Origin: Deroplatys truncata
Taxonomy: Eukaryota; Arthropoda; Insecta; Mantodea; Mantidae
Assembly: GCA_030765065.1 (NCBI GenBank)
Contig: CM060975.1
Location: 199,926,007-199,990,006 of the forward strand
Length of the DNA: 64,000 nt
Reading direction: 5' to 3'
Of the stretch, positions 1 to 43,985 are shown one piece after another. Position numbers and translations under genes: made by a program. The notes beneath the pieces are model-generated. The model searched no databases and was not told the DNA's origin. It saw nothing but the letters and a program-made list of their open reading frames with translations. Position 1 is the stretch's first letter. Each line of letters opens with the position of its first letter.

Positions 1-840
1 ATTTTACAAACGCTTATTCTCCATATGGTTCATGTTAATCGAGATATCGAGATGTCAATCTTATTGGTAATTTTCTTGTAGATGCAAGGGAAATATGGTA
101 GCTTTTAAGCGATAGTCAAATATTTTAACGCTGGTTGCTATGTGGCGCATTCCATTCTCTTTGCATGTCCAGGACATAAAAAAAATGAATAACGAATGTG
201 AGAAAAAGTATAAGTATTGGAAAATTTAAGGGAATAACAAGCAATATCTCGAAAACGGTTCACTCAACAAAAGAAATGTATATGACATAAGTTGTGTATT
301 TTAACGCGATCTACATTTTTTGTGTAGTAAAATTTTGTCTATCTCTTATGGTTTACCAGTTATGCAAAAGTCGTTCACAATGAAGAATACTTTTGGAGAC
401 ATTCCCAGAAAATTCGAGATATACATTTCATTTCTCATGACATTTTCTTAAACATATGATATTTTCATCAAAATCGTTAGAGCCATTTTTGAGAAAATTA
501 AAATTTTCGAAAAATCTTCCATGTAAAGGGTAGTCTGGGGTGGGGGGATTTTCTTGAAAACCTTCGTGTCGCATCTCTGGAAGATACTGAACCTAAATAC
601 CAAGTTTGGTGCTTATCCGACTGTTCGTTTTTGAGTTATGCTGTTCACAGACACACACACAGACACACACACACACAGACACACAGACACACACACAGAC
701 ACACACACGGACATGTTTCCAAAAATGCTTTTTTTGGATTCAGGAGGTCTCAAAACATGTATTTCCGGTGAAATCTCGGTATCGAATTTTTGGGTGGAAT
801 GCAATACTTCCCCTACTTACTATACGTAGTAGAGAAAGTA
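1..840 (-). mobile_element. Microsatellite-bearing ACTTTCTCTACT repeat, copy 1
   Basis: This copy reads on the minus strand and is cut by the window start, so its CACATCAGATTTTT end is missing. Its other end is the near-palindrome ACTTTCTCTACT...AGTAGGGGAAGT at 807-840. A CA/CAGA simple-sequence tract lies at 648-709. Reading both by eye, it is almost identical to the copy at 29783-30680, far closer than to the other copies. Small reading frames in it are made of the simple repeat and are not genes. The family's architecture resembles non-autonomous Helentrons; that classification is inference. Confidence 0.75.
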
Positions 841-1659: not shown

Positions 1660-2050
1660 TCCAATGCATTTATAGCAAAAAACGTGATGTGTTACATTTG
1701 CATGGCTTTCTCTGTGCTCTATCTCATATTAGTGGGTATACAAAGTTTATTTTCCTATCTACTTCATTTTAATCAGGATAAATCTTTGCAGAAATAGCTT
1801 CTTTACAGATACAAAGGAACAGCGAAAGCCAAATGTTTAAGAACTGACACTAAATGCAGACCTTAAAAGTCCATACTCTCTCCATGGCATGGCGAGAAAC
1901 AACTGAAAATCGATAGGACTTTAAAAGAATGGCTAAGTATTGAACAATTCAAACCATTAATAATGAATATTGCAGAAGTGATAGCGGTAAAAAATAAATA
2001 AATGAATTTATGATGTAAATACTGAATTCTATTTTGTTGCATGTCATCCA
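1660..2050 (-). mobile_element. Degenerate ACTTTCTCTACT-family copy
   Basis: Blocks such as CATGGCTTTCTCTGTGCTC, TACTTCATTTTAATCAGGAT and the later ATGGCATGG...AACAACTGAAAAT correspond in order to the terminal third of better copies such as 17287-18120 read in reverse. It is old and truncated. The small minus-strand frame at 1863-2051 lies within it and is not a gene. Confidence 0.5.
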
Positions 2051-2069: not shown

Positions 2070-2785
2070 GAAATCTGATGTTATATTCACATGCCTTTCT
2101 CTACACATATCATTTATCTTTGCATCTCTTCTACAAATTATTCTTTAAAGCCATTCTATCTGTTTCATGTTGAGTAAGATAAACGTTTGCAACACTTGTT
2201 TCATCACACATTTTGTTGTGTAATTGAGGCTAAAGTGATTGTCAAATCTTTAAAATCTGGATCAGTATATGCTGGCTTTAAAATTCTACTCTTGCATTAC
2301 ATTAGAGGAAAAAAGAACAGTGACTGAAGTACTTCAAAACTGTATGATAAAGGATTGGAAAATTCATACCAAATCAATAAATATCCCAGAAATGGTTAAT
2401 GCCACAAAAAGATGTTGGATATAAACTCTATGTTTTAATGCAATCTGCATTTTTTGTGCAGCAAGTTTTATATTTACATCTTTTGGAATATTAGTTACAC
2501 AAAATTATACAAAATTAATTGCAAAAGAAGAGAACTTCACAGACAATTTGTAGAAAATTCAAGATGTATATTTGATTAATTATGCAAATATCTTGAATAT
2601 CTGGTCTTTTTAATCAAAATAAAAAATAAACATGATTTTTTGAAAATGAAAAATAAGAAAAATTTTCTATGCAAAGGGTAGTTTGGAGTAGAAGAATGTT
2701 CGTATGTATCAAATTCTTGAAGAGACTGAACTCAAATAACAAGTATGATATTTATCTAACATTTCATTTTTGAGTTATCCTTAGG
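2070..2785 (-). mobile_element. Diverged ACTTTCTCTACT-family copy
   Basis: On the minus strand this follows the family order from the ATCTGATGTTA...CATGCCTTTCTCTAC end through the AAAATGGTCTTAA-like core to the TTTGAGTTAT block. It lacks the simple-sequence tract and the palindromic end. Its distal ~110 bp form part of the duplicated unit B. Confidence 0.6.
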
Positions 2786-2956
2786 GATCCCAGACATCCC
2801 AGCTTACCCGGGACAGTACCGATTGTTTTATCACTTTGTTGGTTTGTCCCGGGTTTCCGAAGAATTCAGATTTTGAACCTATTGAAACATATTTTTCCTA
2901 ATAAAACTAATTATTTTAATCATGCTTTTCTTATCTATAAAAAAGCATGACTAATT
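2666..2956. repeat. 292-bp direct duplication, unit B
   Basis: Near-identical partner of 843-1134, in direct orientation 1.8 kb away. It has the same CCCGGGACA/TGTCCCGGG inverted repeat. The left flank is the body of a diverged family copy and the right flank is unrelated to the flank of unit A. Confidence 0.8.
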
Positions 2957-4217: not shown

Positions 4218-5520
4218 TTAACACGACTGGCCCGTGTTGTTGGTGTTTCCGTTTTTTGGACTGGATCCTGTGGTGGCATCTTGTGGTGGAGAAATGTACT
4301 TCCAGAGAGGATTTGGTGGCGGCAAATCAAAATTCATTAGATGTGTGTTGTGTTTTAGAATGGTGATCTTCTCCCATGCATCTAATTCGGCTGCAAATTT
4401 GGCTGGTTTGACTAATGTAATATTGGGTTTGATGTTGTGATTAGTGATCCAAAAATGGTGTGAAACTGCAGATTTGTCCATTTGTTTGTATTTAATACAT
4501 CTCATGTGCTCCTTTAGCCTAGTTTCTAAGTTTCTTTTTGTCTTACCAATGTATACTTTATTGCAATCTGAACAATTGATTTTATAGATTCCAGCTTTTT
4601 TGTCTTGTGGAATGGGGTCTTTTAACTTGTTACAAAGTAATTTCTCTATGTTAAATTTGTTCTGTGGAGCTAGGCTGATGTTATGTTTCATGAAAATCTT
4701 CTTAAATTTGTGAAATGTTCCTGGGTGGTATGTGAATTTCTTGAACTTTAGTTCTTTATCTTGCTGGCTGAGATTAGTTGTGTTTCTGATGTGCATCTGT
4801 CGTTTGAATTTTGCAATTTTTTTGTCAATAGTTGCTTTGTTGTACCCATTATGTATTGCTGTGTCTACTATATGCTGGTATTCTAACTGGTATTCTTTTT
4901 TATTTAAGGGGGTATATACCAGTCTATGTGTTAGGCTGTTTAGTACTGCATGTTTGTGTGTGGTTGGATTGAAACTCTTATTTTTTATGTAATTAGTAGA
5001 GTGTGTTGGCTTCCTGTATATGCCAAAGGTTAGGTTCTTTTGTTCTCTGATGATTTTTAGGTCTAAAAATGGTAGCATGCCTTCTTTTTCTATTTCTATG
5101 GTGAATTTTATTGATTGGTTCTGTAGGTTTAGTAAGGCTAAGGAGTCTTGTATGAACCTATTAGGGACAACAGCGAAGATGTCGTCAACATATCTGTGCC
5201 AAACTTTAAACATGTATGGAAAGGAAGTTGTTATGTGTATTTCTAAGTAGCTCATAAATAAATCTGCCAAGAAGGGTGAAAGTGGGTTGCCCATGGTTAG
5301 ACCAGTTGGTTGTTGATAGAACTTCTTATTGAAACTAAAACAATTTTGTCCAATGCATAAATTGGTAAGTTGTATGAGGTCTTCTATTTCTTCTTCAAGT
5401 AGGTTAGTCTGCTGTAGCCATTTCTTTAATTGACGCAGGAGTTGATCTGTAGGGACACTTGGAAATAGTGCAGTGACATCAAAGGAAACTAATCTGTCTT
5501 CTGGTTCAAGTTCCAGTGTT
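4218..5520 (-). CDS. Penelope-like element reverse transcriptase / GIY-YIG endonuclease, N-terminally truncated
   Basis: The open frame covers the 3' part of a Penelope-like ORF. Reverse transcriptase motifs appear in order: VSFDVTALFPSVP (motif A with catalytic Asp), QPTGLTMGNPLSP (motif B) and RYVDDIF (motif C, YVDD). A connector then leads to the endonuclease GIYKINCSDCNKVYIGKT with LEHMR-like and DAWEK residues downstream. The stop is at 4218-4220. An ATG at 5294 is internal to the RT, so it is not the true start; the frame runs unbroken upstream to the inverted repeat, where the element is truncated and N-terminal RT motifs are lost. A complete element copies itself by target-primed reverse transcription, its endonuclease nicking the target. 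Absence of stops and perfect flanking inverted repeats suggest a young insertion, but it is unlikely to be autonomous. Confidence 0.85.
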
Positions 5521-5578
5521 AAGTGAGTAAACTTAAGTGATGTTAGTGTAACAATTTCGACTCACCTTTAAATAAATT
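5518..5578. repeat. 61-bp terminal inverted repeat, right arm, of Penelope-like element
   Basis: Perfect reverse complement of 4121-4181. Here its inner part reads in frame with the RT (LKFTHL leading into the motif A region), so this arm is native coding sequence and the left arm is an inverted copy. A further ~46 bp separate it from the right target duplication at 5625. Confidence 0.9.
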
Positions 5579-9451: not shown

Positions 9452-9664
9452 CCTAGGATAAAGTGTATTTATAATTCGTTTAAATTATATAACCCAGTAC
9501 AGTGTAGTATATTTTAGTTCAGAGACATATAAGTTAACTTTTATAATTTATAATGATTAATTTTATATTACATTCATAAAAATTAGAAAACTTTCCCCAC
9601 TCTAAACATTTATTTTTGCCATGAGGCTAACATTATAGTTTTGTTCCCCTTCCCTCTTTTATTT

Positions 9665-10382
9665 TCTTTACTACTTAGCTCTACTAAATAGAGGAAGTAC
9701 TGCATTCTAACAAAAAGTGTTATATTGAGATTTCACAAATATATGTGTGCATGTGCGTGTGCATGCAAGAACAACATAACTAAAAGCTAAATGTTGGATA
9801 AATACCACATGTGTTTTTAAGTTCAGCATCTTCCAACGTGCAACATGAAGGTTAAAAAATTCCAGCGTTCTAAAATTACATGAAAGAATTTGTTATTTTT
9901 TTATTTTCTCAAAAATAGTTCTATCAATTTTAATTAAAATATATGTTTTAGATATTTGTATGAATAACAAAATGTGTCTTCAAATTGCCAATGTATTTCT
10001 CTTCATTCGGAATGAATTTTATATAACTCTGTTTAACTGGTAAACCACAAGACAGACAAAAACATACTACATAAAAATCTATATCTCTCTAAAACACAAT
10101 TATTTCAAATAATGAATTGTGGTACCAGCCATTTCCTAGATATCCATAGATATTGCTTTGAATTTTTCAATATTTGTCTTCATTTTTTAAAATGCTGTTA
10201 CCATTCATTTGTTTCTCATGAGGTCATGGAAAGATTATGGAATTTCAAGGCCAGCAATAGAGACCCACTTTTTAAACATTAGACTATTGCTTCAGTCTTC
10301 TGTATCCCCTTTGGACCTACTATGAAATTTGTAATGAAACCCTTTCTGCAAATGTATCTTGAATAACATGAAATATATAGAA
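9665..10382 (+). mobile_element. ACTTTCTCTACT-family copy, diverged
   Basis: It begins with TTACTACTTAGCTCTACT and GAGGAAGTACTGCATTC, has a short GTGCATGTGCGTGTGCATGC tract at the expected place, and follows the family order to the TTTCTGCAAATG block. It ends against another copy of the opposite orientation. Confidence 0.65.
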
Positions 10383-11097
10383 AAAAATCTGATGTGTTGC
10401 ACCCACATGACTTTCTCTACTCTTGTACAAACTATTTTTACAAACGCATATTCTCCATCTACTTCATGTTAATCGAGATAAACGTTTGCAGAAACTATCT
10501 TATTGTTAATTTTCTTGTAGGTGCAAGAGGAATATGGTAGGCTTTTGAACTGGTAGCTATGTGAAGCATTCCAATCTTTTTGCATGTCCAGGACATATAA
10601 AAAAAATATATAATAATAACAAATTACCATTTGAGAAAAAGTATAAGTATTGGAAAATTATTCAAACAAATAATAAGGAATATCTTGGAAATGGTTTACT
10701 CGACAAAAAAAAATGTATTACATAAATTTTTGTTTTAACGAGATCTACATTTTTCTGTAGTAAAATTTTGTCTATCTCTGCTTACCAGTTATGCAAAAGT
10801 CATTCAGAATGAGGAGGACATTTGGGGACATTCCTAGAAAATTCAGGATATATATTTCATTTGTCATGGAAATATCTTAAACATATAATATTTTAATCAA
10901 AATCGTTATCTATTTTTGAGAAAATCAAAATTTTGAAAAATGTTCCATGTAAAGGGTAGTCTGGGATGGGGTGGGTTTTCTTGAAAATCTTCATGTCACA
11001 TTCTTGGAGGATACTAAAAAACTCAGATACCAGTTTGATAGTTATCCAACTTTTTGTTTTTGAGGTGTGCTGTTCATAGACAGACACACAGGCACAC
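10383..11097 (-). mobile_element. ACTTTCTCTACT-family copy, truncated at the simple repeat
   Basis: It starts with AAAAAATCTGATGTGTTGCA and CATGACTTTCTCTACTC and follows the family on the minus strand up to the CAGACACACAGGCACAC tract. There it stops at the start of the 0.9-kb TGAGGCAG element. Confidence 0.75.
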
Positions 11098-12114: not shown

Positions 12115-12833
12115 CAGACACACACACACATATGGTACTTATATGATGAAAAGCCAGATAAATAACAAACTTGGTATTTAGGTATAGTATCCTCCAAATA
12201 TGTACAGGAAGATTTTCAAGAAAATCCGCCCACTCCAACTACCCTTTACATTAAACATTTTTCAAAATTTCTGATTTTCCAAATAATGGCTCTAACAATT
12301 TTTATTAAAATACCGTGTATAAAAGATATTTTCATGATAAATAAAATATATATAGATTTTCGTGGAATAGCCTGTGAAGTCCTCTTCATTCTAAAGAAAT
12401 TTTGTATAATTTTGTATAACTTGTAAACATTAACTAATAGACGAAAACATACTGCACAGAAAATGTTAAAAACACATAATTTATTTCAAATAACCTTTTT
12501 TGTGGCATAAGCCATTTCTGAAATATCCGTTATTAATGGTTTGAATTGTTCTTTACTTGGTCATTCTTTTTAAGTCTTGTCAACTCTCAGTTATTTCTCA
12601 TGATTGTATGGAAAGAGTATAGAATTTTAGGGCCAGTATATAGCATACAGTTCTTAAACACTTCACTACCGCTCTTCCCTTTGTATCTATAAAAAAATAT
12701 GTAATGTAAATATTTCTGCAAAGGTTTATTTGGATTAAAATGAACTAGATAGAAAAATAAACTGTGGTAAGAATAGTCTGTATACCTACTAATAAGTGAT
12801 AGAGTGTAGAGATGTGAAAGTATCACATGAGAT
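12115..12833 (+). mobile_element. ACTTTCTCTACT-family copy, 5' truncated
   Basis: It begins at a CACACACACACA tract, continues with the AGATAAATAACAAACTTGG and CTACCCTTTACAT blocks, and ends with TAGAGTGTAGAGATGTGAAA and CACATGAGATTTTT. The part before the simple repeat is missing. Confidence 0.7.
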
Positions 12834-13012
12834 TTTTGTACAACAATTTTTTACTTCTGCAATATCAGTAATGAAACTAAATATCACTTTCAACCACTTT
12901 TGTACTAATGAATCTTCTGGGAGACTATAAGGTGATAATACTGATGCCTAAGAAACAGATGTGCTTATGATCAATGAATTCTTGATAAACAGTTAACAGA
13001 TTTAAAACTTAC

Positions 13013-13479: not shown

Positions 13480-16400
13480 CTGAGAAGAAGATTACAAAAA
13501 ATATGAGTAAAAATAATGGGAGCAATAGTTTCTTACATGTAGCATCTAACTCTGATCTCTAAGAAGGGGTTTGACTGTGTAATGTATAACAATAACCCTT
13601 TTTATTAGATTACAGGGATGACTTGATTATAAATATGTCACTAATAATAAAATTAACTTTTGAGTCAATTTGTAACACGTTGACAAAACACAGTAACGAA
13701 AGTGAGGGTTTTTGAAACATATTCTGAATGAATGTTTTTTTTTAAGAAAGGGGAGTAAATAAATGCCATATGCACTGCGAAAGTTGTGATCTATTGTGCT
13801 TCCCTTCATTTAATCTCCTGAGATTCTTGCCTGCTTTGCAAGGTCTACAAGTCTCTTAGTAGACACTTCTTGAAATCCTTGCAACAGCATGTTTCCTGAT
13901 TAAGGTATTTAACCCTTTGAATATGAGTGCTTGACAATCACACAGCAAATGAGATATTAAAACACAAACACATTAAAAGTATTAATAAAAGTGAAGTTAA
14001 AGTATGTTACTATTTCTTGAGTCGACATGTTGGCACAACTAGCATCAAGTTCTTAAAATACAAAATACACAATTATTTCAGGTAGCGTCCTGCCTATCCT
14101 CAGCAGTTGAGCCGAGTAAGTTGTTCTTCTCTTGTTTTTCCTATCTCTTGCCATGGACTCGTTACGACCTCATCTGGTGGTTGTAAAAGGAACTGCATGA
14201 TGCCATCTGTGGGAGGGATCTTGAAATTCAAACATTTTTGTTTATTCATTTTGATGTGAATTTTTTCCCAAGCATCCAAATCTGTGTGTTTATTAACATT
14301 TTTTAGGAGTTTGATTTCAAGACCGATGTCATGATGGTCTTCCCAAAAATGTGATACAGCTGAATGGTCACATTGTTTTAATTTGATGTTCTTTCAGTCT
14401 AATCATAAGTTTTTTTTTTGTTTGTCTAATATATTTCTTGTCACAATGTTTGCAGTCAACACTATAAATACCTGATTTATTTATGGGATCAATCTTCTTT
14501 TTTAAGGGATTATTCAGTAATTTATTTAAACTGTACTGCTTTTGTGGAGCTAGTTGTATTCCAAAAACTTTAAATATGGACTGAAATTCACTAAAACTCT
14601 TAGGATGGTACGTGAATTTTTTTGTATATTTTTGCTTTTTCAATATCGACTCAATAAATACTAACAAATGAGATACTGTTACATTTACTCTTCTGTATTT
14701 TCTACATACTGATTGACTGCTTTGCTGATTTTTTGGAGGTGCCCATGTAGCTGACAGTGTCCTGTTAATAGACTAATTGTCCTTTTTACTGTAGTTCCAC
14801 TCATTTTAAGCAGTGATTGTGTCCTGCTTGAATGAATGTTAAGTCAGTGATATAAGTATTACAAATCAACTTAAATGTTAATTTTATAACCTCTTTTATG
14901 TCTAGTATAGCATATTTTACATAAAGATGTTTTGTTAAGGTTTTAGAATTTTTTAATTACTTTTTTTATTTCATTTTATACTAATATTTAACAATAAAAT
15001 ATGGGGTTTACAGCAGTTTTATATTGCTGAAATATTAAATTTTTTATAGTGGGTATTGTTTTTAGAATAAGCAGCAAAATCCAGGCAACTGCAGTCCAAT
15101 GTAACCTGTGAGCATCCAAGTGTACCTCATATCGGTTATTTTACTTGGGCCCTGCCCATTCTTTACCACGGGCACAGCAGTCACTGGGATTTGAACTTGT
15201 GATGCTTTGCTTTCAATGGATGGCCAATCCATTTTGTCTCACCTTAGCAATCATGGCTATTTGAATTGCTTTGGTTGTGGTGTCTGTGAAAGGGTTATGA
15301 ATCTGAGTTTAGGAATCCAAAGAAGAGCAGCATATGTACGCAAAATAATTCCAACATTAAGGTGAATCTAAAAGCTTAGCCCTCAGTTTCCTTTTCACCA
15401 ATCCTACCTCCCAATTTCTATAATCTCCTGTATCTTTTACTGCTCTATCAAGGACTTTGATTTGAGAAACAAATGATGGTTGTAAATAAGTACAAAGGCT
15501 TTCACGGCCGGAGTTAATCGATAAAACATTAAAGTCTTCCGGGCTGGAAGGCTGTGGTCTAAGGGTAAAATTACTAGCACCCGACATTTCGGTCACTCTG
15601 TGGTTGCCATCTTCAAGAATGTAACACCCAGGACAGCTTGATAACGACTACAGTTTCTTTGTATAAATGTTGAGAATGAATGCTTAGACTATCAAATTAT
15701 TAATGAACTCTGTTCACACTATTAAAGTTTTGCTACATTTTCTGGTTAAAACTGGTGTGGCAATTATTTCTCCATAGTGACCTTCAGAATGACATATATA
15801 TAGCATTTCCACTTCTACTCTATCATATATAATATTTTGCTACCATTGCCCTTAAATTCCCATGGTTTAAACATTTCTTTGTATCAATTTTCTAATAATA
15901 ATTCCTATTGATCTTCAGACATCACACTTGAGCATATTTCTGAAATCGAATCAACTTGGGAAAGGCATGTTCCTCTCTTAGACAAAGTTCCATAGGCTTT
16001 TGTCCTTATACAAAAGAACAATGAAAATGTTGTAAACATGTTGGTTCCCCCGTGTAACATTTGGATATATAGAAACTTAGAAGGCCAGTGTTTTTGCCTC
16101 CAATTTAACATTAGTTACAAATATTATGCTTTTATTCCCCTTATGCTAAATTTATTACTACATAAACATAAACCTTATTTTTACTTTCTCTACTACGTAT
16201 AGTAAGTAGGGGAAGTATTGCATTCCACACAAAAATTTGATACTGAGATTTCACCAGAAATATATGTTTTGAGGCCCCCTTAATCCAAAAAAAGCATTTT
16301 TGGAAACATGTCCATATGTGTCTGTATGTCTGTGTGTCTGTCCGTCTGTGTGTCTGTGAACAGCATAACTCAGAAACGAAGTCGGATAAACACCAAACTG

Positions 16401-18865
16401 GGTATTTAGGTTCAGTATCTTCCAGAGATGCGACACGAAGGTTTTCAAGAAAAACCCTCACCCCCGATTACCCTTTACATGGAACATTTTTCGAAAATTT
16501 TAATTTTCTCAAAAATGGCTCTAACGATTTTGATTAAAATATCATATGTATAAGATATTTTCATGACAAATAAAATGTATATCTCGAATTTTCTGGGAAT
16601 GTCTCCAAAAGTATTCTTCATTGTGAACGAATTTTGCATAACTGGTAAACCATAAGAGATAGACAAAATTTTACTACACAAAAATTGTAGATCGCATTAA
16701 AATACACCATTTATGTCATATACATTTTTTTGTTGGGTGAACAATTTTCGAGATATTGCTTGTTATTTCCTTAAATTTTCGAATACTTGTACTTTTTCTC
16801 AAATTCGTTATTCTTTTTTTTATGTCCTGGACATGCAAAGAGAATGGAATGTGCCACATAGCAACCAGCACTTAAAATATTTGACTATCGCTTATAACCT
16901 ACCATATTCCCCTTGCATCTACAAGAAAATTAGCAATAAGATTAACATACTGATTAACATGAAGCATATGGAGAATAAGCATTTGTAAAAATAGTTTGTA
17001 CAAGAGTAGAGAAAGTCATGTGAGTGTAACACATCAGATTTTTTCATACGTACCTTTTGAATTGTTCTCTAATTTTAAGTATGTAACAGTGCCTTGTTGC
17101 ACTCATCCTATAATTTTATATTTAGTTTTATTTAGTTTTTGACACATTCAGTTAAAATAATTACATTTCACCGGTACTAAGGTGCGGTCACAATAATACT
17201 GCCTTACTTCACTGTTTCTCGCTTCAACTTTTACTTATTAAAGTTATATAATTGTACTTACATAAGGTATTCCTACATACATTTTTACTTTCTGTACCAG
17301 TACATAGTAGGTAGAGAAAGTATTGCATTCCACCCAAAAATTCAATACCAAGATTTCACTGGAAATACATGTTTTGAGGCCCCTTAAATCCAAAAAAAGC
17401 GTTTTTAGAAAAAGGTCTGTGTGTGTGTCTGTGATCAATGTAATTCAAACACAAAAGTCAGATAAATACCAAACTTGGTATTAAAGCTCAATATCTTCCA
17501 AAGATGAGGCACAAAGATTTTAAAGAAAATCCCCCACCCCAAAATACCCTTTACATGGAACATTTTTTAAATTTTTTTTTACTTTCTAAAAAATGGCTAT
17601 AACATATTTGATATATTTACATGAAAAAAAAATATGCGTTTTGAATTTTCTGGGAATAGCCTCTGAAGTCCTCTTCATTCGGAAGGGATTTTGTATAATC
17701 TTGTATAACTGGTGAACTTAAGCAATAAACAAAAATGTTCTACACAAAAAATGTAGATCTCTTTAAAACACACAATTTACTTCAAATAAGTCTTTTGTGG
17801 CATAAGCCATTTCTGAGGTATCTATTAGCAATGGTTCAAGTTGTTCATTACTTGTTCTTGAAGTCCTGTGAACATTCAGTTGTTTCTTGCAGTTGCATGG
17901 AAACAGTATGGAATTTTAAGGCCAGTATATGGCATCCAGTTCTTAAAAATTTGACTTTTACTTTGCATCTATAAAGAAATGTGTAATGTAGCTGTTTCTG
18001 CAAAGGTTTATTTGGATTAAAATGTAATAGAAAAATAAGCTTTAGTATGAATAGCTTGTATACCCACTAATAAACGATAGAGGGTAGAGAAAGTCATGTG
18101 AGTGTATCACATCATATTGTGTTGTCTTATTGACATTGCCATGTAAAAATTTTTAGAATGGAACAGTCACCATAATGATGAGGTAGGCAACATATGATGC
18201 TCACAGAATTATACATGTTGGCTAGCAATTCCTGCTTAATTTTAACTAGCTAGGACAAAATTATTAGCATACTTTTCTAGATATTTGCTGAAGATTTATT
18301 CAGCACACATCATGACAGATGCTTTAGTCTTTTTAATAGCTTGTGCTTGCTTACACTAAACTATGCTAATCAGAATAATTTATTAGCCCTTAAAAGTAAC
18401 AAGCAATATGTATCTTTTAAACTTTAAGGCAACTTACCGTCATGACTTTCCACAGATGGTAAAGCATTTACATGAATAAATTTCTGGAATGCTTTACCCA
18501 GTATACCTGGTGGCTCAGGTAGTCTCTTTTGATTTTTTGCATACTCAAGACTGTCTTCACTAGAATAAACCAGCCAGCATACTTCTAATAAATAATGTAG
18601 AAATTGCCAGAAAAGAAGTGGCTCAGCAGGATCATACACTCTAGTTATTCTGGCACTCCAATTATTTTCTGTAATGTAAAACAATAAAAAGGTCACACTT
18701 TCTAAGAAATTTAACTTTTTCTACTACATACTTACAGTAAGTAGAGAAAGTATTTTACTCCACCCAAAAATTCAATTTCGAGATTTCACCGGAAGTATAT
18801 GCTTTGAGGCCCCCTGAGCCTAAAAAGCATTTTTACAAACATGTGCATGTAGGCATGTGTGGGTG

Positions 18866-18921
<56 letters not shown>

Positions 18922-21900
18922 TGTGTGTGTGTGCGTGCTCATAGTTACATTTTCATTTAACATCAATACCATTTTGCAATCGTAAGTGATGAATAGGTGA
19001 TTGACACCTAGTTTAAACTGGATGCATGAAGCAAATACAAGCAAATGGAGCAACCACCACCACCGCCACCGCCACTGCCACCGCCGCCACCACCACCGCC
19101 ACCACCACCACCGCCACTGCCACCGCCACCACCACCGCCACCACCACCACCACCATCATTCATTAAGCTATTCTCTTGGTATTCAATACATTCTCTTAAC
19201 ACATTACTTTTTTCTAGATTAAAAGTTCTGAACCAAAATTTCAAAGCTCTTTCCATTATCTTCCCCTTAGTTGTCACCCTGTCCATCTCTAATTGTGCTA
19301 CCTGCCTTACAATTGACTTCGGTAGCCCTAGTATTTCTCTATAAAACATCCTGTGCACCACATCTATACTTTCCCATCCTCTATCTAATCCCCATATTTC
19401 TATACCATACATCATTTTTGCCTCCACAACCATCTCATAAACTTCTTCCACCCATTTAACATTTATATTAGGTACTTTATATTTGCAGCTTCTAATTGCA
19501 GCCATCACCCCTTTACCTTTTGCCAATGCAAACTTCTTTTGTTTCTTCCATTTATTACCTCCATCTATTTTTACTCCTAAATAGATACAGTCACGCACTA
19601 CCCTGTAATCTTTATTCTCTCCCTTCCACTTTTCATATTTGCTTAATTTTCCACCCTTTTTGAAAACCACAATCTGTGATTTCTCTTGATTCACTTTTAA
19701 CCTCCATTCTTTACAATATACATCAATTGCTTGTAATGATTGTTTTAAACCACTTATTGTAATAGATCCTACCACTAGGTCATCTGCAAAAAGAAGTCCT
19801 GGGATTTGGATGTTGTTAATTACTCATCCAGATCTGTGCCTGTTTTGTAACAATAGTTTGTTGAGGAATGTGTACAGAAAGTCATACAAATGCAACATAC
19901 ATTTTTTCCTTTCTTGTTTAGGAAAAATGAACTGGGCCAGTATCCCTCCAAAGCATAGTAGCAAGATATTTTGTGCAATATTATAAAATGTAAAAATATA
20001 ATAGCTTTTGCTGCAGGCCAAATTTTAGGTTGGAATTCTCAGTTGCTGCTTCATTGTTACACATGTGAAGTATATTAAGAAATAGGCTATGCAACATATG
20101 TATCCATCTGCATGACTAACACTCCCAGTGATTGAATAATCCTTACTCTAGCTGTACTGGAGTGAGTGAGTGATCCTCTGCTCATAACAAGGTTCAATGG
20201 TGAATTTTGGAGATCAGTTATGCAGCATTTCTTTATGAAGGAGTTAGATTCCTCCTGCAATAGCTAATATTATTGTAAACAGAAAAAAGAATATGATAGT
20301 AGAGGAAATCAGAGTTTTGATACTGCTGAAGACATTCATATCAAAGACGATTTAACATACAAAACAAGGTTGAAAAAGCAGTATCAACAATACGTAAGGT
20401 TAGCAACAATCCAACAACACTGAAAATGATACAGATGCATGACCTGGTCGTGAAGTACCTCAATCATCACATATTTCTTCTGTGTTTGAGAATCTTCTTC
20501 AACGACTTGTAAAACGTATTCTTCCTAGTTAGATGTAAGAGCAACTTTTGGTGTTCCTTGATACATGTTTATGGTTCCTAACTCAGTAATGCAATGATAA
20601 ACAGCATAAAATGTTGGATAACTCAGTTGGTTTTAATCTGAAAATGCCATTTGATACTACTATGCAGCCTTGCATCTGTTATCATTTGCATCACCTACTT
20701 AAAAATCACATCTGCCTTGTCATGAAATCAATAGCCTGGCATGGTTAAACATAAATGTACACAAATGTTAACAAATCTCTTTGGCAACATATTGTACCTA
20801 AGGTACAATGAGTGCTTCAGCAGATTTCTATCAATAACAAAATTTGATTATCTAACAAAATTAATGATATTTTTGGTTACAAACCTAAACTGTTGGATTG
20901 TACCTTGAAATGTATTGAATGTAAACTTGTATTAACAACACAAAAATAAGATTTCTGAAATATATTATGTATATATGCACTTGTTTTCTTGTTTTGATGT
21001 GAGAAATCTGCCACTGTAGCTTATATAAATATATATATGCATCTTCAGATTTATTTGACCTTTACCGCCAATCAGTTTAAATAAACGAATTCACTATTAG
21101 TTTAGCGAGTCCCATGTCTCAAATGAGAAAAGTGGAATTGAACCTCAGGCTGTATGTATTTCCAAATTCGTAACAGGTTGATGTAAAGTGGCGGTGCAGA
21201 ACTTGTTTTCGCTAGGACATTTTGTGCGTTCTTTGCACACAAGATAGAAGTGGCCACCAAATACAAAATTTGCATGGTTGAATGCTGCTTCTGAATGGGA
21301 GGATATAAGGGGAGACTATCGTTATTATATTGGTTGCTGTGTGAATCATTTTCTCCATTCTTGCCCAGAGTTTCATTAAGTTCTGAGATAAAACATTTTA
21401 AAAAACAAAAAAACAGTTGTTTTCATTAAAACAACTAAAATATTTAAGCATATTTTAAAATATTTAAAATATTTATAAAGATTACTTCAGTTGCTTTTAT
21501 TAAAAAGCTAAAGTTGTGCCATTAAAGCCGAGACACTTTCTACAAAAACCATCCAATTATTTGAGTTACCTATCAGTGTACATGCTGATATTGCAAATTT
21601 ACAAAAGAAGTTCCAAATGTGGACACTGGATAGCTACAATACAAGTCCTATTTCATTCATGACAGTTGACATCCACCATTTCCACTCATCTCTTGCTAGT
21701 CCTCTGCTAGAAGCATGGGTGGTAACTTGCTTCAAAGTATTAACATCATGCGCAGACAACCAAATGGCAGTAAAGGTCAAGTAACTCTGAACACCGCATA
21801 TATACCTAATGTTCTTTGGTGTCTCACCTGTTCCACCTTATTCATCTTTATTAGTCAAGGTTTTCTAAAAGTGAAATTTTAATATGGCAAAATCTACTGC

Positions 21901-24900: not shown

Positions 24901-26045
24901 GGTGCACCTTTAAAACTCTTTTGGGACAATGTGGTACTCGAGAGGAACTGCTACGTGAACCTGCATCAGTCTGAGCCTTGAAAATCATTAATAAAAGTAA
25001 ATCATAAATTGGCAAGACAACACCAGCTTCGTCTCAGGTAAGCATGCCGTCCAACTAAACTATATGTACCCCCATAGGCGGCCTCGAGTTGTGTAGTAAT
25101 ACATCTATATTTTTATACACTTATTGGGTTATTATGTAAATGTTTAGGACCAAATTGGTCATACTGACACCTTCCCCTGGGTCATGTACTTGAGATGCTA
25201 GGTGCCCGCACCTCTCACCGCTTCCAACCCTCTGTATTTCACCGACGACATTTGGTGAAGGCACCCCTTTGAGCTCCCTACTGTTATTACCCCTACAAAT
25301 ATCCCTTAATTTGCCTCCCCCCGTGACATTTGGTGGAAGCGCCGAATAAACTTAAAATTAAACCTTTTTGACTCTTGAACTAATGAACAAACAAAATTAT
25401 AGTGCCTCAGTTAGCGTATCTCTTAAGTAGTAATAAGAAAGATTCAACTATCATTTTAATACAAAGCTAATGAGGAACACAAATAGCAAAAATGCAATTC
25501 ATGAAAAAGGAGCGACAACTTCACGTATAAGTAAATTGGCAAGTTTTGAAGATAACACCTTTCAGATGACTGAAAAATTCAATGCCATAGCCGGGATTTG
25601 AACCACGGATCTCCCGGTCTCCGTCCGGTTGCTCTAACCACTGAGCTACCATGGCAACATGCCGACACGACATTAAATTCTCCAGCTGATTCGCATTTTT
25701 CCCGGTAAACCACAAGGAGATATCAAATTGTATTGAGATGCCATACCCCAATGGCGACTTACATTTATTGTAAGTACTTTAAGTTCCGGGCTTTATAGTT
25801 GCAACCACTATTAGGTCAATTAATTCCATAACACCTTTCAGTTTAAAAGCAATATTTTTGAATGTGTATTAACATCAGCAATAATATTATTGAGTATTAA
25901 TAATAAATAATAATAAATATGAATAATAAGTAATAATAAGTATTATTAATAATAAATATGAAAGATAAATGATAAGTATTATTAATATTAATAATAAATA
26001 ATAATAAACATTAATAATACATTTAATAATAATGTGTATTATTAC

Positions 26046-29100: not shown

Positions 29101-32100
29101 AGAAACTTGAGTCTTAATTTTAATTATGAATACTGTAAGGCAAGGGTGGGGAAATGCCTTTCTCTCTCGAGAGCAACATGCACTACACCACTCAGCAGCA
29201 CACAGAAAACAAATGAATAGACAGCTAGAAATGGAGTTGCGCCTGCGAGTCACACTGCCTCGTGAGTTGTGTTTTCGCTACCACTGCTGTAAGGCATCAT
29301 TTAATGTAAGTAGGCTTACTAGGAAGATTTAATGACATTATATTACCTTTAATTTATTAATAAGTTAATACAATGTAATACTATCACTCGTCTCAGAATT
29401 CATTTCTGCCAGAAACACATTCCACTGGTCTTGCCTTCAAGGTCTTGCCTTTGGAGGTAAGAAGTCAAAAACTACCTTCATTCTGTATTAAATTATATAA
29501 TGACTTCAACAAATGAAAACAGATCCTAATAAGAAACAGTTAGTGGCGAAATAAAACACCAAAATAATATCATACCTTCATCATTACTATTTAATGCTTT
29601 GCATTTTTTTTAATGATTTTCCATTGTGTACTTGGCCTTCTAATTCATTAAATTATATATGTTTTATATAATGACTTCAAAATATTAAAACAGATCCTAA
29701 TAAGGAACAGTTAGTGCCAAAATAACATCCCAAAGTAATATCATAAGTTCATCATTGCTGTTTGATTCTTTGCTCTCTTTTTACTTTCTCTACTACGTAT
29801 AGTAAGTAGGGGAAGTATTGCATTCCACCCAAAAATTCGATACCGAGATTTCACCGGAAATACATGTTTTGAGACCTCCTGAATCCAAAAAAAGCATTTT
29901 TGGAAACATGTCCGTGTGTGTGTCTGTGTGTGTGTCTGTGTGTCTGTGTGTGTGTGTGTCTGTGTGTGTGTGTGTCTGTGAACAGCATAACTCAAAAACT
30001 AACAGTCGGATAAACACCAAACTTGGTATTTACGTTCAGTATCTTCCAGAGATGCGACACGAAGATTTTCAAGAAAATCCCCCCACCCCAGACTACCCTT
30101 TACATGGAACATTTTTCGAAAATTTTAATTTTCTCAAAAATGGCTCTAACGATTTTGATGAAAATATCATATGTTTAAGATAATGTCATGAGAAATGAAA
30201 TGTATATCTCGAAATTTCTGGGAATGTCTCCAAAAGTATTCTTCATTATGAACGACTTTTGCATAACTGGTAAACCATAAGAGATAGACAAAATTTTACT
30301 ACACAAAAAATGTAGATCGCGTTAAAATACACAACTTATATCATATACATTTTTTTTTGTTGAGTGAACCGTTTTCGAGATATTGCTTGTTATTTCCTTA
30401 AATTTTCCAATACTTATACTTTTTCTCAAATTCGTTATTCATTTTTTTATGTCCTGGACATGCAAAGAGAATGGAATGCGCCACATAGCAACCAGCGATA
30501 AAATATTTGACTATCGCTTAAAAGCTACCATATTCCCCTTGCATCTACAGGAAAATTACAAATAAGATTGACATCTCGATATCTCGATTAATATGAAGCA
30601 TATGGAGAATAGGCGTTTGTAAAAATAGATTGTACAAGAGTAGAGAAAGTCATGTGAGTGTAACACATCAGATTTTTTTTATTATGATTCTACATTCTGT
30701 TTACTTGGTTTTATAATTATCATCCACATTTCCTCTCTTTGCTGTACATTCTTTTCTGTTCTCATTTCTTATTTCATCAAAAAAGAGCCAAATTGAGTAT
30801 TTTTCCCTCCCAATTATCCTACTGCACATGCAAGCAATTCAACTGACACTGACAGGATACTGATCTAACAATGGACACATGCCACACAATCAACTGCTAC
30901 AATATTTAAATTTAAACAGTGAGTGTTGTTCCAATAACTATGGAAAATAGTAAGATAAGAATAAAAATAAAATAAAACAGATAGTGGATTTAAAAAACAA
31001 ATTGGCTTTAATCAACCAAAGTGGTTTAAATCAGCCAGCCCTGTCAGATAATGATCTAAATATTTCAAATCTGGCTTTTCTTTCCAACCTATACTCTGAC
31101 ATGGCCAATAACAACATAAATCAGATTGCCTTTGAGGTTACCTAGAATATATGAAAAGCAGATGAGAGGAGTTCACTGTGTACTCACATCTCATCACAGA
31201 AGCACAGAAATTCTGTAGCAGCACAGAAAGCACAGTTTGAGTGCCAACCATGGCATTGGATTTTTCAAATCTGATTCAGCTTGCCATAAGAGGCAAAAGA
31301 ACTGATTTAGCATAGAACTGGCAAATTCAAAACTTGGCTTTCAAGTAGTAGTACAATAAAATACAGGGTACCTCAAGGATTGGTACTCGGACCTCTTTAT
31401 TTATCTTATACATAACAACTTGCCAGATAATGTAAATAATATGACAGGTGTAAATATAATACTTTTCGCTGATGATACTAGTACTTTTATAAAAGAGGAG
31501 AGCAAGAGTAATCCAAATCTGCATATAGATAAAAGTTTGAAATACATTTTTAACTAGTTCAGTGCAAACATGCTCATATTAAGTAAATAGAAAACATCAG
31601 CTCTGTACTTCCATAATAAGATAAATAAAATAAAATTTATCCAAGATTAACTTTGAAACAATGCCAAATAAATTATACAAAACCAAATATATTCTTAGGT
31701 TTAATAGTAGAAGGAAATTTGAGTTGGGAACCACACACACAGACACATTGGCAAACAAACTGAATAAAATGTGCTTCCTAATAAGGGCAGTCAAATGCAT
31801 GTCTAGTGTATAAATATAAATAGAGCAGTATACTTTGCATATGTCCATAATCTACTAGTGTATGGTATTATATTCTGGAAAAATTCCAAAGATAGTGTGA
31901 AAGTATTCAAGATACAAAAGAAAATAATTAGAATTATGACAGATCTCTCAACTACAACTAGTGGTAAACCATACTTTAAACAATTAAGCAGTTTACTTTT
32001 GGCAAGTATCTACATATATGAAACACTTGTTTATATGAAAGTTCACTTAAGTTTATTCAAAATAAATTCAGAAGCTTGTATACATATCACTAGAGTAAAG

Positions 32101-38100: not shown

Positions 38101-38531
38101 ATCAATATATTTTTGTTCCAACATTTTAATACCTGCTAACCCAGTCTGTAATATTAAGGGGCTTTTGACATCCTCAGCTTGGAAACCTCATGGGAAGTAG
38201 ATCCAGAGCAATGCTTTTCCTGGTTTTGCTACAGTTTTAGGAATTTGGAATTTGTTTGTAAAAGCACACTTAGCATACTTAAGCTTTTACCTGCTTAAGT
38301 GTGTTAAACACATTCATTTTACTTCTAAGAACTTGGAACACCAGCCTAATTTTGGCTTTATAGTCTTTTACATATATATTTACTTTCTCTACCATGTACA
38401 TAGTAGGTAGAGAAGGTATTGCATTCCACCTGAAAATATGATATCAAGATTTCACCGGAAATACATGTTTTGAGGCACCTTGGATCCAAAAAAAAAGCCT
38501 TTTAATAAAAAGTTCCATATGAGTGTGGGTA

Positions 38532-38594
<63 letters not shown>

Positions 38595-41500
38595 AGCATA
38601 AAACAAAAATGAAAAGTCAGATAAATACCAAACTTGGTAGGTATTTAGGTCAGTACCTTACAAAGATGTGACACAAAGATTTTCTATAAAATCACCCCGC
38701 CCCAGACTATCCTTTATGTGGAACGTTTTCCAAAATTTTAGATTTTCTAAAAAATGGCTCTAGCAGTTTTGATTAAAATACCATACATTAAAGACATTTA
38801 CATAAGAAATAAAACGTAGATCTTGAATTTTCTGGGAATAGCATATGGAGTCCTTTTCGTTTGGTAGAAATTTTGTATAATCTTGTATAACTAGTAAACA
38901 TTAAGGAATAGATGAATAGATGAAAACGTACTATATAAAAAATGTAAATCTCTTTAAAACACACAATTTATTTAAAATAACATTTTTTGTGGGATCAGCC
39001 ATTTCCAAGATATCTGTTATTAACACTTCGATTTGTTTAATACTTTGTCATTCATTTTGAGTCTTGTCAATTTTCAGTTGTTTCTTATGATATGCAATCA
39101 TAAAGGATGAAATTTTAAGGACAGCATATGGCATCCAGTTCTTAAACATTTTACTATCGCTGTTCCCTTTGTACACTAGCAGAATGGGTAATATAGACAT
39201 TTCTGCAAAGGTTTATCTCCATTAAAATGGAGTAATAGAAAAATAAACTTTCAGAAGAATAATTTGTATGCTCACTAATAAATAATAGATGGTAACGAAA
39301 GTTAAGTGAATGTAACACATCAGCTTTTTTAAACCATGCACAGGAATGGCTTTCTCATTTTCAGCATTATAGTCAATTCACCAAACATACTTTGTGAGCT
39401 GTGATGGAATAAAGTAGTTCAGAGCTTTCCATCACCTTCTCCAACAGACATATGGAGCACATTAATAAAATTACCCTGTTTTTGTTTTGCATATAATCTC
39501 CATTGCCTTCAAACCTTCACATCTAGTACTCGGTGGGCAGTGGTAAATAACAGAAACTGTTTCAGTCAATTCTTTGCTTCTGTCCAGTTGAGAGGGGGGG
39601 GGATCTCTTATCTAACTTTACTTTTCAGAATACTCAGCAGTGCTATGGCAGAATTAAGGCTACTTAACTTTCACCAAGATGACCTAGGTTTAATCTCAAT
39701 AGCCACAGATGGAATTTATGAAGGACAAAGTGATGCTTGGACAGGTTTCTTCCTTGTACTCCAATTTCTCTTGCAAGTCATTCTGCTAACTGTTCCAACA
39801 TCACAATTATTCTCATCCCCACAACTATCCTATCATTCAGTTTCCCTTATTCAAATCTATAAAAATAGCATGGATAACTTTAATATGGACAATTATTTTT
39901 AATAAATAACTAAATAAGTAAATAAATATATATGTGCATATAAATGAAACTCTATAAGAACAGAAAAAGATGGTACCTACATGAGGGAATTAAGTTAGGA
40001 TAAAGAAGAGCATTAAATGTCCTTCTGTTTGTAGATAACTTAGTTTTAATTTTTGACAAGGAAGGCTATAGAAAGCAGTATATCAACTGAATCAAATCTG
40101 TAAAAAATACAATATAAATACAATGCCATTTGTGAAAATTGCAACATGAAGGAAACACATGAATTCAATGAATTTAATACCAAGGTTAGGTATATGATGA
40201 GTAACAAATGATAAACTTTTCAAATCTATACATTTTGTCACTCAGCACCCCAGTGACGGTGTTCACATGCCCATTGCAGTCGGAGGAGCTTGTGGTTTCT
40301 GGACAATGGAAACCGACGTAATGGCATGCATGCAACCAGTCCAACCTGCAGCAGACGGTGACAAACCGTTGATGCAGACAAGTTCACACCTGTTGCAGTG
40401 CTCCAGTGTCGAGCGAACACTGTGGATGAAGCTGTATGGTCCGTTATGGCCATGCGGACAAGATGACGGTCATCCCATGCTGTGGTCATGTTCCATGGTC
40501 CAGTACCCGCTCTTGCTGCGTATGACCTTTATCTATCCACTGCTTCCACACATGCATCACTGTTGTAGAAGCATGCCCTGTACAAGCCGAAATGTCATGG
40601 TATGACAAACCGCTTCCTGGAGACCGATCATTTAGCCCTGTTCAAACTCACATGCCTATATGACTCCCTTTGACGTCGACGAGGTATACTGGCACTCACT
40701 TTATTGTTTCCACCATGTTTGACAGCTCTGCACTGACTACATTGGGCGCAACACTGATCTTGTCGAACTGACACGAGAGGGCTTTGCTCGGCCTTTGTGT
40801 ACCCCATCTCTCTGCAAACCTAATCACTTATTACTTGCACACTCTTCTACACTTCTACCAAGTTTGGAGTTATTCGGGAAATTCTTTCTTGGTGTTGCAA
40901 TTTTCACAAACGGTAGTGTATATTTAGGACAAAATACAGGGAAGATATCCAGTAAGAAGTAAAATAGTATTAGAAGACAATATATTGAAACAAGTATCAC
41001 ATTTCCAATACCTTGGCTGTGACGTAACTTATAACCAAGATCAGGATATGAACAAAAAAAATACAAAAATTTCAAGCAGTCTGTGGAGTTATCAAATGAA
41101 CCTTTAAAAATAAGGCAAGGAGAGAAACACAATTAAGATTTTATACAGTATGGCAGTGCCAGTGATAAATTATGGGAGTGAAGCATAGACTGTCAAGAAA
41201 AACTAAGATATAAGCAGCTGAAATGAGGTTTTTAAAATCAGTCAAGGGCTATACAAGAGAGGAACATATTAGAAATGAGGCAATCAGAGAAGAGCTGAAA
41301 GTACAACCACTATAAGAAATAGAAAAAAATAGAAATAAATGGGTTGAACATCTCCACCGCATGCCAGAAGAAAGAATACCCAAACAAGCATTTTGTTACA
41401 GACTTAGGGGATCAATTGGATTACCCCAAAAAAGATGGTTTCAATAAATATGAGACCAAAACAGGCAAATACCTAAACCGTGAAGGGGGGAGGGGAAATG

Positions 41501-42455
41501 TTAAAGAGTTTGGCTACAACACTGCCCTATCTCTCATTCTTGGAGAAACTCTAAAATCAAATTGACAATTTCACACTTGACATTACTCAAGAACCACCAC
41601 CGCTGCTGCCAAACCCCCCCCCCCTTGCCATCACCACCTTCATTTTTATGATCACTGTCATTTTGAGAATATGCCAGTAATAACTATTTGGGATTCTTAC
41701 TGTCAAGTATTTGATCAGACTTGTAGACTTGTGCTCTTTAACTAAATTTTACATTGCATTTTAAAGATACCCTATGAGCTTTGTAACTGAGTTCCTATAA
41801 TAGCTGATAGTTTTCAACCATATCTGATTCACAAAGACTAATGACCCAATATCAAGAACAAAAAAAGAAAAGCAAAACATGAATAAGAAGAAAACTGGAT
41901 TTGGCAGGCGTTGCATCTAGATTACTCATAATTATACTAATTTTAATATACCACATAAAAGTGATTCACAATAATCCAAGAACAGGAACCAGAATGGAAA
42001 GAACAAGAAGAAAAAATGTATACAAGTTTTGGTCTACAATACCCCAGTAACAAGAAAGGGAATGCATATTGATGGCCAAATTGATAACAAAATGGAAAGT
42101 GGAATTTGTGCATTGGGGCGTCATTTGCTTGCACTGACCAATAATATGTTTCCCTTGCTTCTAATTTAGCCAACATAGTGCAAGTTAGCCAATGTCAAAG
42201 TTTGACAGAGTAAGCATTTTTTTAAATGCCGATTATTATTTCTGATTCTTCTATGCCTTTATTAATGCCATGGAAAGTTTATTGTTCTTCTTTGTTAATT
42301 TCTACCATGTTTTACTTTCTTTACCATGTGCCTAGTAGTTAGAGAAGGTATTGCATTCCACCTAAATATTCAATACTGATATTTCACCAGAAATACATAT
42401 TTTGAGGCCATCTGAAACCAGAAAAAGCGTTTTCAGAAAAAAGTTGCATATCTGT

Positions 42456-42488
<33 letters not shown>

Positions 42489-43985
42489 TGCGTGCATGCG
42501 TGCGTGCGTGCGTGCGTGCATGCGTGCGTGCGTGCGTGCATGCTTGTGAATAGTTGGACCAACACTAAGCTAGGTATTTAATTTCAGTATCTTCCGAAGA
42601 TGCAACACTAAATTTTCAGGAAAATCACCCTACCCCAAACTACCCTTTATGGGAACATTTTTCGAAATTTTTGATTTTCTAAAAAATGGTTCTGAAGATT
42701 TTGATTAAAATACCATATATGAAAGATATTTACAGGATAAAATGTAGGTATATCCTAAATTTTCTGGGAATAGCCCATGAAGTCCTCTTCATTTGGGAGG
42801 AATTTTGTATAACCTTGTATAACTGGTAAACGTTAAGCAATAGACAAAAAACGTACTACACCAAAAATATACATCTCTTTAAAACACACAATTTATTTTT
42901 AATAAGTTTTTTGTGGCATAAACCATTTCTGAGATATGTTATTAAAAGTTTAGATTGTTAATTTCTTGGTAATTCTCTTTAAGTCCTGTTAACATATAAT
43001 TGTTTCTCGTGATTGCATGGAAACAGTATGAAATTTTAAGGCCAGCATATAATGACCAGTTCTTAAACATTTGACTATCACTGTTGCCTGTGTATCTATA
43101 ACAAACTGTGTAAGTAGACAGAAAAATAATCTTTAGTAAGAATAGTTTGTATACACACTAATAAACGATAGAGGGTAGAGGAAGTCATATGAATGTATTG
43201 CATCAGATTTTTGCTACTGTTTTTGTGGCAATAGCCAGTTTTGAGTTACATATAAACAATTAAACTTTTGCTAAAAGAACCAGTGCACACTTTACTTGGG
43301 GGAGTCAGGATCTATAGTCAGGACATGCATTTGCTAGAATTCCTTCTTCATTTTTCCAGCTTGTGACTAGAGAGAACTCTAGTGGCTGTTTCATCCCATG
43401 ACTGCCTTGAATAATGATTACAGTGAAGAATAATATGCATAACATGCTGTGCCTGGGAACGAGAGCATTAACATTGAACCAAGTCTTCTTTTCTGTTCCC
43501 AGGACTTGGGAGAGCTTCCCGTTAATTGTGAACACGCACATTGTAATACATATATTTTAACTTTGCCACTCTCGTTTTGGTTACCATTCTCGGTTATTGT
43601 GAACCAGCCTTAATACTTCAATGTTCATACCTGCAAATAAGTATTCCTGAACCATGCTTTTTACCGCGGACCCAGTTGCCTTCAAAGCGAAGTCCACTGG
43701 GGGTTAGAATAGTACCACTAGCTGAGTGCAGAAGTCCTAGTCCATGCTTTTTATTATTTTCCCACCAGCCCATGAAAATGTTCTGCATGGGAAATGCCAA
43801 CTCTGTATTGAAAAAGGCTCTCCAAGTGTATTCACCATAGCCACATCTCTGACCTTTTGCCCAAAAGCCTCTGTATACCTGCATGAATACAACATACACT
43901 GATTTATTTATTTATTCACCCCTTTTCATCAGGACTGCAGAAGGTAGGGAAACAATTAAGCACTCGAACACAAATAAATATATTA

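Follow-up and report, generated by a model that had tools for sequence, protein, structure and literature searches.

A Helentron family of the mantis Deroplatys truncata with landing sites inside its own copies and double-headed autonomous elements

Helentrons are recognized by a Ser residue in motif 2 of the Rep protein, RG(S)PH, a position at which Helitrons have Leu, according to the part of the work on the mite Metaseiulus occidentalis that is drawn on here (PMC4067079). In the same part of that account, HINEs have palindromic subterminal inverted repeats (subTIRs), set back from the 5' end by two to four bases; close to the 3' end there is another, short palindrome that is distinct from these, and insertion is into T-rich targets (PMC4067079). 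For FoHeli, the non-canonical Helitrons of Fusarium oxysporum, the available portion of the description explains multiple 5' termini by self-insertion together with a start at the outer 5' end (PMC5148889). Helentrons, HINEs, T-run targets, nested clusters and multiple 5' termini are already in print. Few natural cases are known so far of tandem arrays of Helitron-like elements and of the choice of ends at which transposition starts and stops.

The family described here is close to the mite elements. As far as the consulted part of that description goes, the two are alike in the 12-15 bp palindromic subTIRs and the 3' stem-loop, in the unmodified T-rich target with a variable number of Ts, and in the Rep/PIF1/endonuclease protein with the Ser in RGSPH and with HINEs as deletion derivatives (PMC4067079). 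The distance from the 3' subTIR to the 3' end is different, approximately 25 bp here as compared with the 38-60 bp given there for the mite. DINE-1/INE-1 of Drosophila, likened by its description in the same source, shares the subTIRs, the internal microsatellite, the 3' stem-loop, the TT preference and the high copy number (PMC4067079).

We analyzed a stretch of 64,000 nt (the window) and the genome to which it belongs (4.29 Gb in 818 contigs). A BLAST search of the window with the copy at 29783 (copy I, Table 1) identified 12 related copies. The preliminary description had claimed ten or more; all 11 that it listed were recovered, plus a 3' fragment at 1677-2031, while shorter matches at 842-973, 51580-51664 and 57052-57128 were left out of the count. 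The best identity to copy I was 97% for the copy at 1-839, 90% for the copy at 16183, about 80% for those at 10381 and 18714 and approximately 60-68% for the other seven. With at most one mismatch, the box ACTTTCTCTACT matched the window 11 times as compared with 0.46 expected, a number reached in none of 100 shuffles; the box AAAAAATCTGATGTG with at most two mismatches matched seven times as compared with 0.77 expected. The family makes up 13.7% of the window, which was itself chosen for its repeats. Both ends, which had been ascribed to every copy, are kept in five (16183, 17287, 29783, 38382 and 42314) but not in the other seven: the copy at 1-839 crosses the window edge, the one at 9661 is 3'-truncated, the one at 18714 is a 5' half, and those at 10381, 12115, 2071 and 1677 lack the 5' end. 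Likewise, the simple-sequence tract does occupy one fixed position, but it differs in kind among copies, being TG/TCTG in some, (GA)29 at 38535 and (GTGC)21 at 42460. Three truncated copies (10381-11097, 12115-12837 and 18714-18940) are broken at this tract, as though the sequence were fragile there. A stretch of about 290 bp that takes in part of copy B and its flank is duplicated almost identically (842-1135 and 2666-2957). Family coordinates (q) are window coordinates minus 29700.

Table 1. Coordinates of the family copies in the window and of the structural features of copy I.
Feature	Position in window	Strand	Basis or remark
Copy I, reference HINE, complete	29783..30680	+	orientation taken from autonomous partner
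5' subterminal inverted repeat ACTTTCTCTACT, 5' end, first palindrome arm	29783..29794	+	copy I
Second arm of 5' palindrome (AGTAGGGGAAGT)	29805..29816	+	12 pairs
Internal simple-sequence tract of copy I (TGTC/TG repeats)	29909..29980	+	
T7 run CATTTTTTTATG, landing pad for same-family insertions	30442..30448 (q742-748)	+	intact versus filled counts, nested junctions
3' subterminal inverted repeat AGTAGAGAAAGT	30639..30650	+	copy I
3' stem-loop, 5 bp, 7-base loop	30652..30668	+	pairing over 9 copies
3' T-run, part element, part target	30673..30680	+	junctions of inserted copies
Flank of copy I, tandem repeat, period 171	29530..29782	+	neighbouring unit is the candidate empty site of copy I
Copy A, identity to I 97%, 3' end outside window	1..839	-	5' flank duplicates part of copy B
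Copy L, 3' fragment	1677..2031	-	BLAST
Copy B, without 5' end	2071..2796	-	BLAST
Copy C, 3' part lost at start of copy D	9661..10380	+	BLAST
Copy D, 3' end abuts body of C in opposite orientation; broken at simple-sequence tract	10381..11097	-	
Copy E, without 5' end, broken at simple-sequence tract	12115..12837	+	BLAST
Copy F, complete, 90% to I	16183..17044	+	BLAST
Copy G, complete, older subfamily	17287..18119	+	BLAST
Copy H, 5' half only, terminates in simple-sequence tract	18714..18940	+	BLAST
Copy J, complete, older subfamily	38382..39330	+	BLAST
Copy K, complete, older subfamily	42314..43212	+	BLAST

Several other features were noted in the window. An open frame with reverse transcriptase and GIY-YIG domains (Pfam; 4218-5561, minus strand) is presumably Penelope-like, and the frames at 14100-14772 (minus strand) resemble it by eye with no Pfam match. 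Two fragments with Transposase_1 matches in Pfam (44681-45196, minus strand; 60820-61353, plus strand) we take to be mariner-like. Two frames with MORN repeats (Pfam; 43618-43911 and 47045-47467, both minus strand) are possibly exons of one host gene, and Rfam places a tRNA gene at 25583-25655 (minus strand). A Pfam scan of 20 of the 67 frames listed detected no Rep or helicase in the window.

The Rep-helicase was found elsewhere in the genome. A search for Helitron_like_N (PF14214) gave at least 152 matches with 150 of 291 candidates scored, and among the matches listed 18 lie in stop-free frames of 2,100-2,543 aa. Six of these long-frame loci were analyzed with 20 kb each and read on both sides. 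An element sharing the ends, which the preliminary description had proposed to search for, does exist in the same genome: in six of six loci, the gene is framed by both ends of the family. All six elements start with the first ~750 bp of the HINE at 84-86% identity and terminate with its last 37-101 bp, the identity of which is about 95% in five loci and 72% in C10. They are 9.6-11.0 kb in length, and the longest holds an inserted HINE. The protein scanned, that of copy C5, has matches to Herpes_teg_N, DUF6570, Helitron_like_N, PIF1 and Exo_endo_phos_2 in one frame. In this copy the Rep and PIF1 domains are fused and we count the C-terminal endonuclease as present, with an E value of 1.3e-5 over profile positions 2-117 of 117 and a score of 25.5 bits, which is below the Pfam cut-off of 27.4. 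Rep motif 2, VEFQMRGSPHEH, reads RGSPHEH in six of six copies and thus has the Ser of the Helentron RGSPH. The six autonomous proteins are 96.5-99.9% identical, which suggests recent activity. Unlike in the mite Helentrons, as portrayed in the part of the source used here (PMC4067079), no RPA-like second frame was identified among sense-strand frames longer than 250 aa in the six loci, which comprise the Rep frame and frames overlapping it only. The Herpes_teg_N match (L021:5064-9998, copy C5; 36.2 bits, cut-off 25) possibly represents a cysteine protease, comparable to the OTU-like domains that are mentioned in that part of PMC4067079. A 63-bp (21-aa) repeat in the N-terminal part of the Rep frame is present in approximately 11 to 24 copies at L021-L032, and its number varies between otherwise near-identical autonomous copies. 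No relatives were found in a viral collection with the protein query, a DNA pattern or the helicase-endonuclease half, nor in a prokaryotic genome collection with one DNA pattern.

The partner also settles the orientation. The ACTTTCTCTACT palindrome had been described as a 3' hairpin, so that the element had been read backwards; it lies upstream of the autonomous gene and is the 5' end, and the 3' end is formed by the weak stem-loop that precedes the T-run. Because the gene of the partner reads away from the palindrome end, the + strand is the sense strand for the copy at 29783. In the 12-bp 5' palindrome, 96.9% of 96 cells were paired over eight copies, as compared with at most 63.5% in slid versions, and its DNA fold z was -3.1 to -4.3 in four of the five copies folded and +0.7 in copy K. 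One pair varies, with T-A in five copies and C-G in three, and in all five two-ended copies the 3' box follows this variation (copies F and I have A; copies G, J and K have G). The 13 one-side changes are all T-G on the + strand, which, in a small set of related copies, is a hint only. The stem-loop at the 3' end is weak, with 40 of 44 cells (90.9%) paired over nine copies, no covariation among the nine, and fold z values of -1.1, -3.6 and -1.7 in three copies. The 12-bp inverted boxes at both ends fall within the 11-15 bp of Helentron and HINE subTIRs. They are asymmetric, one located at the 5' terminus within the palindrome and the other set back from the 3' end by about 25 bp; on that side, the order toward the terminus is box, stem-loop and T-run.

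The exact 20-base 3' end, GTGTAACACATCAGATTTTT, occurs 147,968 times in the genome and its reversed-pattern control zero times; this count takes exact copies and leaves diverged ones outside, F and I being the only copies in the window that carry the exact end. All listed junctions are at T-runs or after at least one T. At the sites read, insertion was into TT or T-rich sequence without target-site duplication, the Ts themselves excepted. In insertions into the T7 run of another copy (the pad), the left flank extends into the run and the right flank begins again with the first base past it, q749, and at the nested junction in L039 the flanks are exactly continuous (q739/q740). No duplication outside the Ts was detected at nested sites inside other copies, in agreement with the insertion without target duplication at TT or AT sites that had been expected; because T-run lengths at junctions vary, a few Ts may be duplicated. 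In a selected sample of 49 paired ends, the family was present on both sides in 30, on one side in seven and on neither in 12. These loci were picked as best matches or for a Rep gene, and the pairing was mechanical, with some ends mismatched (L039 5748, L040 2796). The joined flanks of copy I align to its tandem neighbour, a candidate empty site. The right flank alone scored 17.0 against the neighbour, which was reached at seven of 500 random places and is at chance level, so it is mainly the left flank and the join that speak for this empty site. The partner with common ends and the insertion at T-runs support the preliminary assignment to a Helentron-like non-autonomous class. None of the signs named beforehand as speaking against it appeared, namely consistent target-site duplications, a poly-A type insertion signature at empty sites, or autonomous relatives encoding another enzyme.

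Two other classes have to be weighed against a Helentron. If the inverted 12-bp ACTTTCTCTACT boxes near both ends were terminal inverted repeats, the family would be a MITE of a cut-and-paste (TIR) transposon and a target duplication would be expected. The asymmetry of the boxes, the nested sites without duplication outside the Ts, and a partner that has the same ends and encodes a Rep-helicase all argue against this class, which we regard as extremely improbable; neither symmetric terminal repeats nor a fixed target-site duplication was found. We give similarly little credence to a non-autonomous canonical Helitron, which would have a 5' TC, a 3' CTRR and an A/T target. The same genome does have canonical-type Rep genes: among the 12 best-scoring other Rep loci looked at, six carry RGLPHAH, and the motif pattern finds nothing in the other six. 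The partner that shares the ends carries the RGSPH motif, however, and the family terminates in ACTTTC and a T-run and inserts at T-runs; TC/CTRR ends and A-T insertion were seen neither at the ends nor at the junctions. As internally deleted Helentron copies, the HINEs keep about 750 bp of the Helentron 5' leader and its 3' terminus.

Both the T7 run inside the element and the 3' T-run are landing sites for more copies, resulting in nested and in head-to-tail arrays. Genome-wide exact patterns gave 7,773 filled and 35,354 intact pads, an occupancy of 18%, the intact count including units of satellites, of which 31 are listed for the beginning of C1; the filled pads account for 5.3% of all exact 3' ends. 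In contrast, a control site at q650 of the same element was filled in 91 cases and intact in 51,647 (0.2%). The pad-to-control ratios are approximate because the counts take exact patterns, and part of the 100-fold difference is attributed to T-run length because q650 is mostly TTTCTTTT. T7-T8 was present in nine of the 100 control sites listed, so that a pad excess of about nine-fold would remain, a rough figure given that 30 of the 100 are units of one satellite. If all T-runs of at least seven were equal, approximately 1,421 filled pads would be expected by a rough yardstick, the T-run count of the window, as compared with the 7,773 found. Head-to-tail junctions amount to 6,097. Some filled pads are only 231-232 bp apart (e.g., C1:24690179, 24690411 and 24690643). 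Close to the beginning of the first contig, 31 occurrences of the pad pattern follow each other at a 3.41-kb spacing (C1:20307-122592); the one unit read (L042, C1:20000-23900) consists of one HINE and about 2.6 kb of other DNA.

Eighteen autonomous copies were examined, six read on both sides and 12 on the 5' side only. Eleven of the latter have frames of at least 2,100 aa and L054 has one of 1,631 aa, so that 17 of the 18 listed long frames and L054 were covered. The insertion context was taken from a BLAST search with the 400 bp preceding the moved unit. Eight copies start inside the pad of another copy (C5, C8, L043, L044, L047, L050, L051 and L053), two at the 3' T-run of another copy (C4a and L049), three within another copy in the opposite orientation (C13, L048 and L052, the host of L048 being an old family copy) and five in DNA without family match (C9, C10, L045, L046 and L054). 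Thus, 13 of 18 start in some family copy. The binomial chance of even 12 or more of 18 doing so would be 3.6e-7 if the family made up 13.7% of the genome and 0.0014 if it made up 30%.

Most of these copies are double-headed. An extra 5' head of about 660 bp from a HINE was observed in 13 of the 18 copies examined (five of the first six and eight of the further 12), which makes the double-headed unit the majority autonomous form. Head and autonomous 5' end meet within the T7 run, the head being a HINE 5' half with the variant AAATGCG. Five heads are 98-100% identical to each other, 96-97% identical to five other young HINE copies and 92-93% identical to copy F; the eight further heads are 98.6-99.8% identical to the C5 head. 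In a tree, the heads form one clade (99/86) and the autonomous 5' ends another (100/97). In both clades C8 is outside C4a, which is outside the rest, although support for the branching order among the heads is weak (SH-aLRT 28-74). No in-register match was found between the outer flanks of the five headed loci except for C5 and C8, both of which are in pads and whose host copies are 97% and 93% alike on the two sides. The left flanks of C4a and of C13 each share pieces with those of C5 and C8, these flanks being family copies, and no match was found among the other right flanks. The C8 composite is followed by one 3' remainder only, which belongs to its host copy. Because the headed loci differ in their outer flanks and C8 has the 3' remainder of its host only, the head and the element move together. 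In C8, the autonomous 5' end is 96-97% identical to the heads and 95-97% to the other autonomous 5' ends, and L050 is similar; with a 5' end equally near the heads, heads and bodies may exchange sequence.

Other histories could have produced the arrays and the heads. Rolling-circle read-through into concatemers, or unequal crossing-over, instead of repeated insertion into the family's own T-runs, is rather unlikely to account for the arrays. The 6,097 head-to-tail junctions would look alike under either process, and constant-period arrays, such as four junctions 2,481 bp apart on C1 and the 3.41-kb array at the start of that contig, speak for these processes. At the inner pad, however, the flanks are adjoining halves of another copy (J4 16300, L002 1384, L006 272, L038 769 and 6533), which argues against a concatemer because a concatemer does not yield such flanks, and the spacing of 231-232 bp between filled pads is in agreement with multiple levels of nesting. 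For the arrays, we keep the reading of repeated insertion into the family's own T-runs. As to the head, its presence in 13 of 18 autonomous copies is also what would be seen if it were an old integral part of the element that single-headed copies have lost. We consider this quite improbable, as the heads group within HINE copies and apart from the autonomous 5' ends. In addition, the headless C10 branches first among six autonomous 5' ends, in a tree that has only C10 of the five headless copies, and the headless L043 and L051 sit in a HINE pad, which is the precursor state expected if the head was acquired by insertion.

Taking T-run insertion, self-landing and composite movement together, we hold it very likely that the HINEs are gene-less deletion copies of a Helentron which moves in this manner. 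Then, how would a composite arise? The Rep protein would nick at the palindromic 5' end, one strand would be displaced as far as the 3' stem-loop, and the displaced strand would join a T-run. For an autonomous copy located in a HINE pad, the structure suggests that transposition could begin from the outer 5' end and terminate at the first 3' end reached, after which the host half and the autonomous element would move as one double-headed unit. On balance, we think it reasonably probable that this Helentron lineage targets its own family. The T7 pad in the leader would be preferred about 100-fold over another site, the outer 5' end would export the double-headed unit that is now the main autonomous form, and self-targeting would spare host genes and build arrays giving rise to satellites. 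As thousands of self-insertions lie at a known sequence, they allow target choice, the handling of T-runs and the recognition of ends to be followed at the base level. Structural evidence that mobile units result from a start at the outer 5' end with a stop at the first 3' end, in an open-frame Helentron, comes from the double-headed copies.

A search of titles and abstract openings in one open literature collection returned no report of a self-landing pad or of double-headed autonomous Helentrons, and the box letters led to no repeat paper by title. For the mite, no description of self-landing pads or double-headed autonomous copies was found in the part of the account considered (PMC4067079). 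The tandem Helitrons of bat, silkworm and plants, as cited in the portions of PMC4067079 and PMC5148889 used here, likewise form head-to-tail clusters; bypassed termination or circular intermediates have been invoked for them, whereas insertion into the family's own T-run explains the inner-pad cases here. The closest parallel is FoHeli, which in the available part of its description has several 5' termini and one 3' terminus, as in this family, and for which the composite model matches the one drawn here (PMC5148889). Its repeated 5' piece is typically below 200 bp, with self-insertion given as a possible source, as compared with about 660 bp here, and its ends and targets differ from those of this family. 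Unlike in that part of the FoHeli account (PMC5148889), autonomous copies are seen here in the HINE pad, and the copies that carry the head are autonomous ones whose frames are open. The family itself is filed as Helentron, and the new part is the self-landing pad and the double-headed autonomous form.
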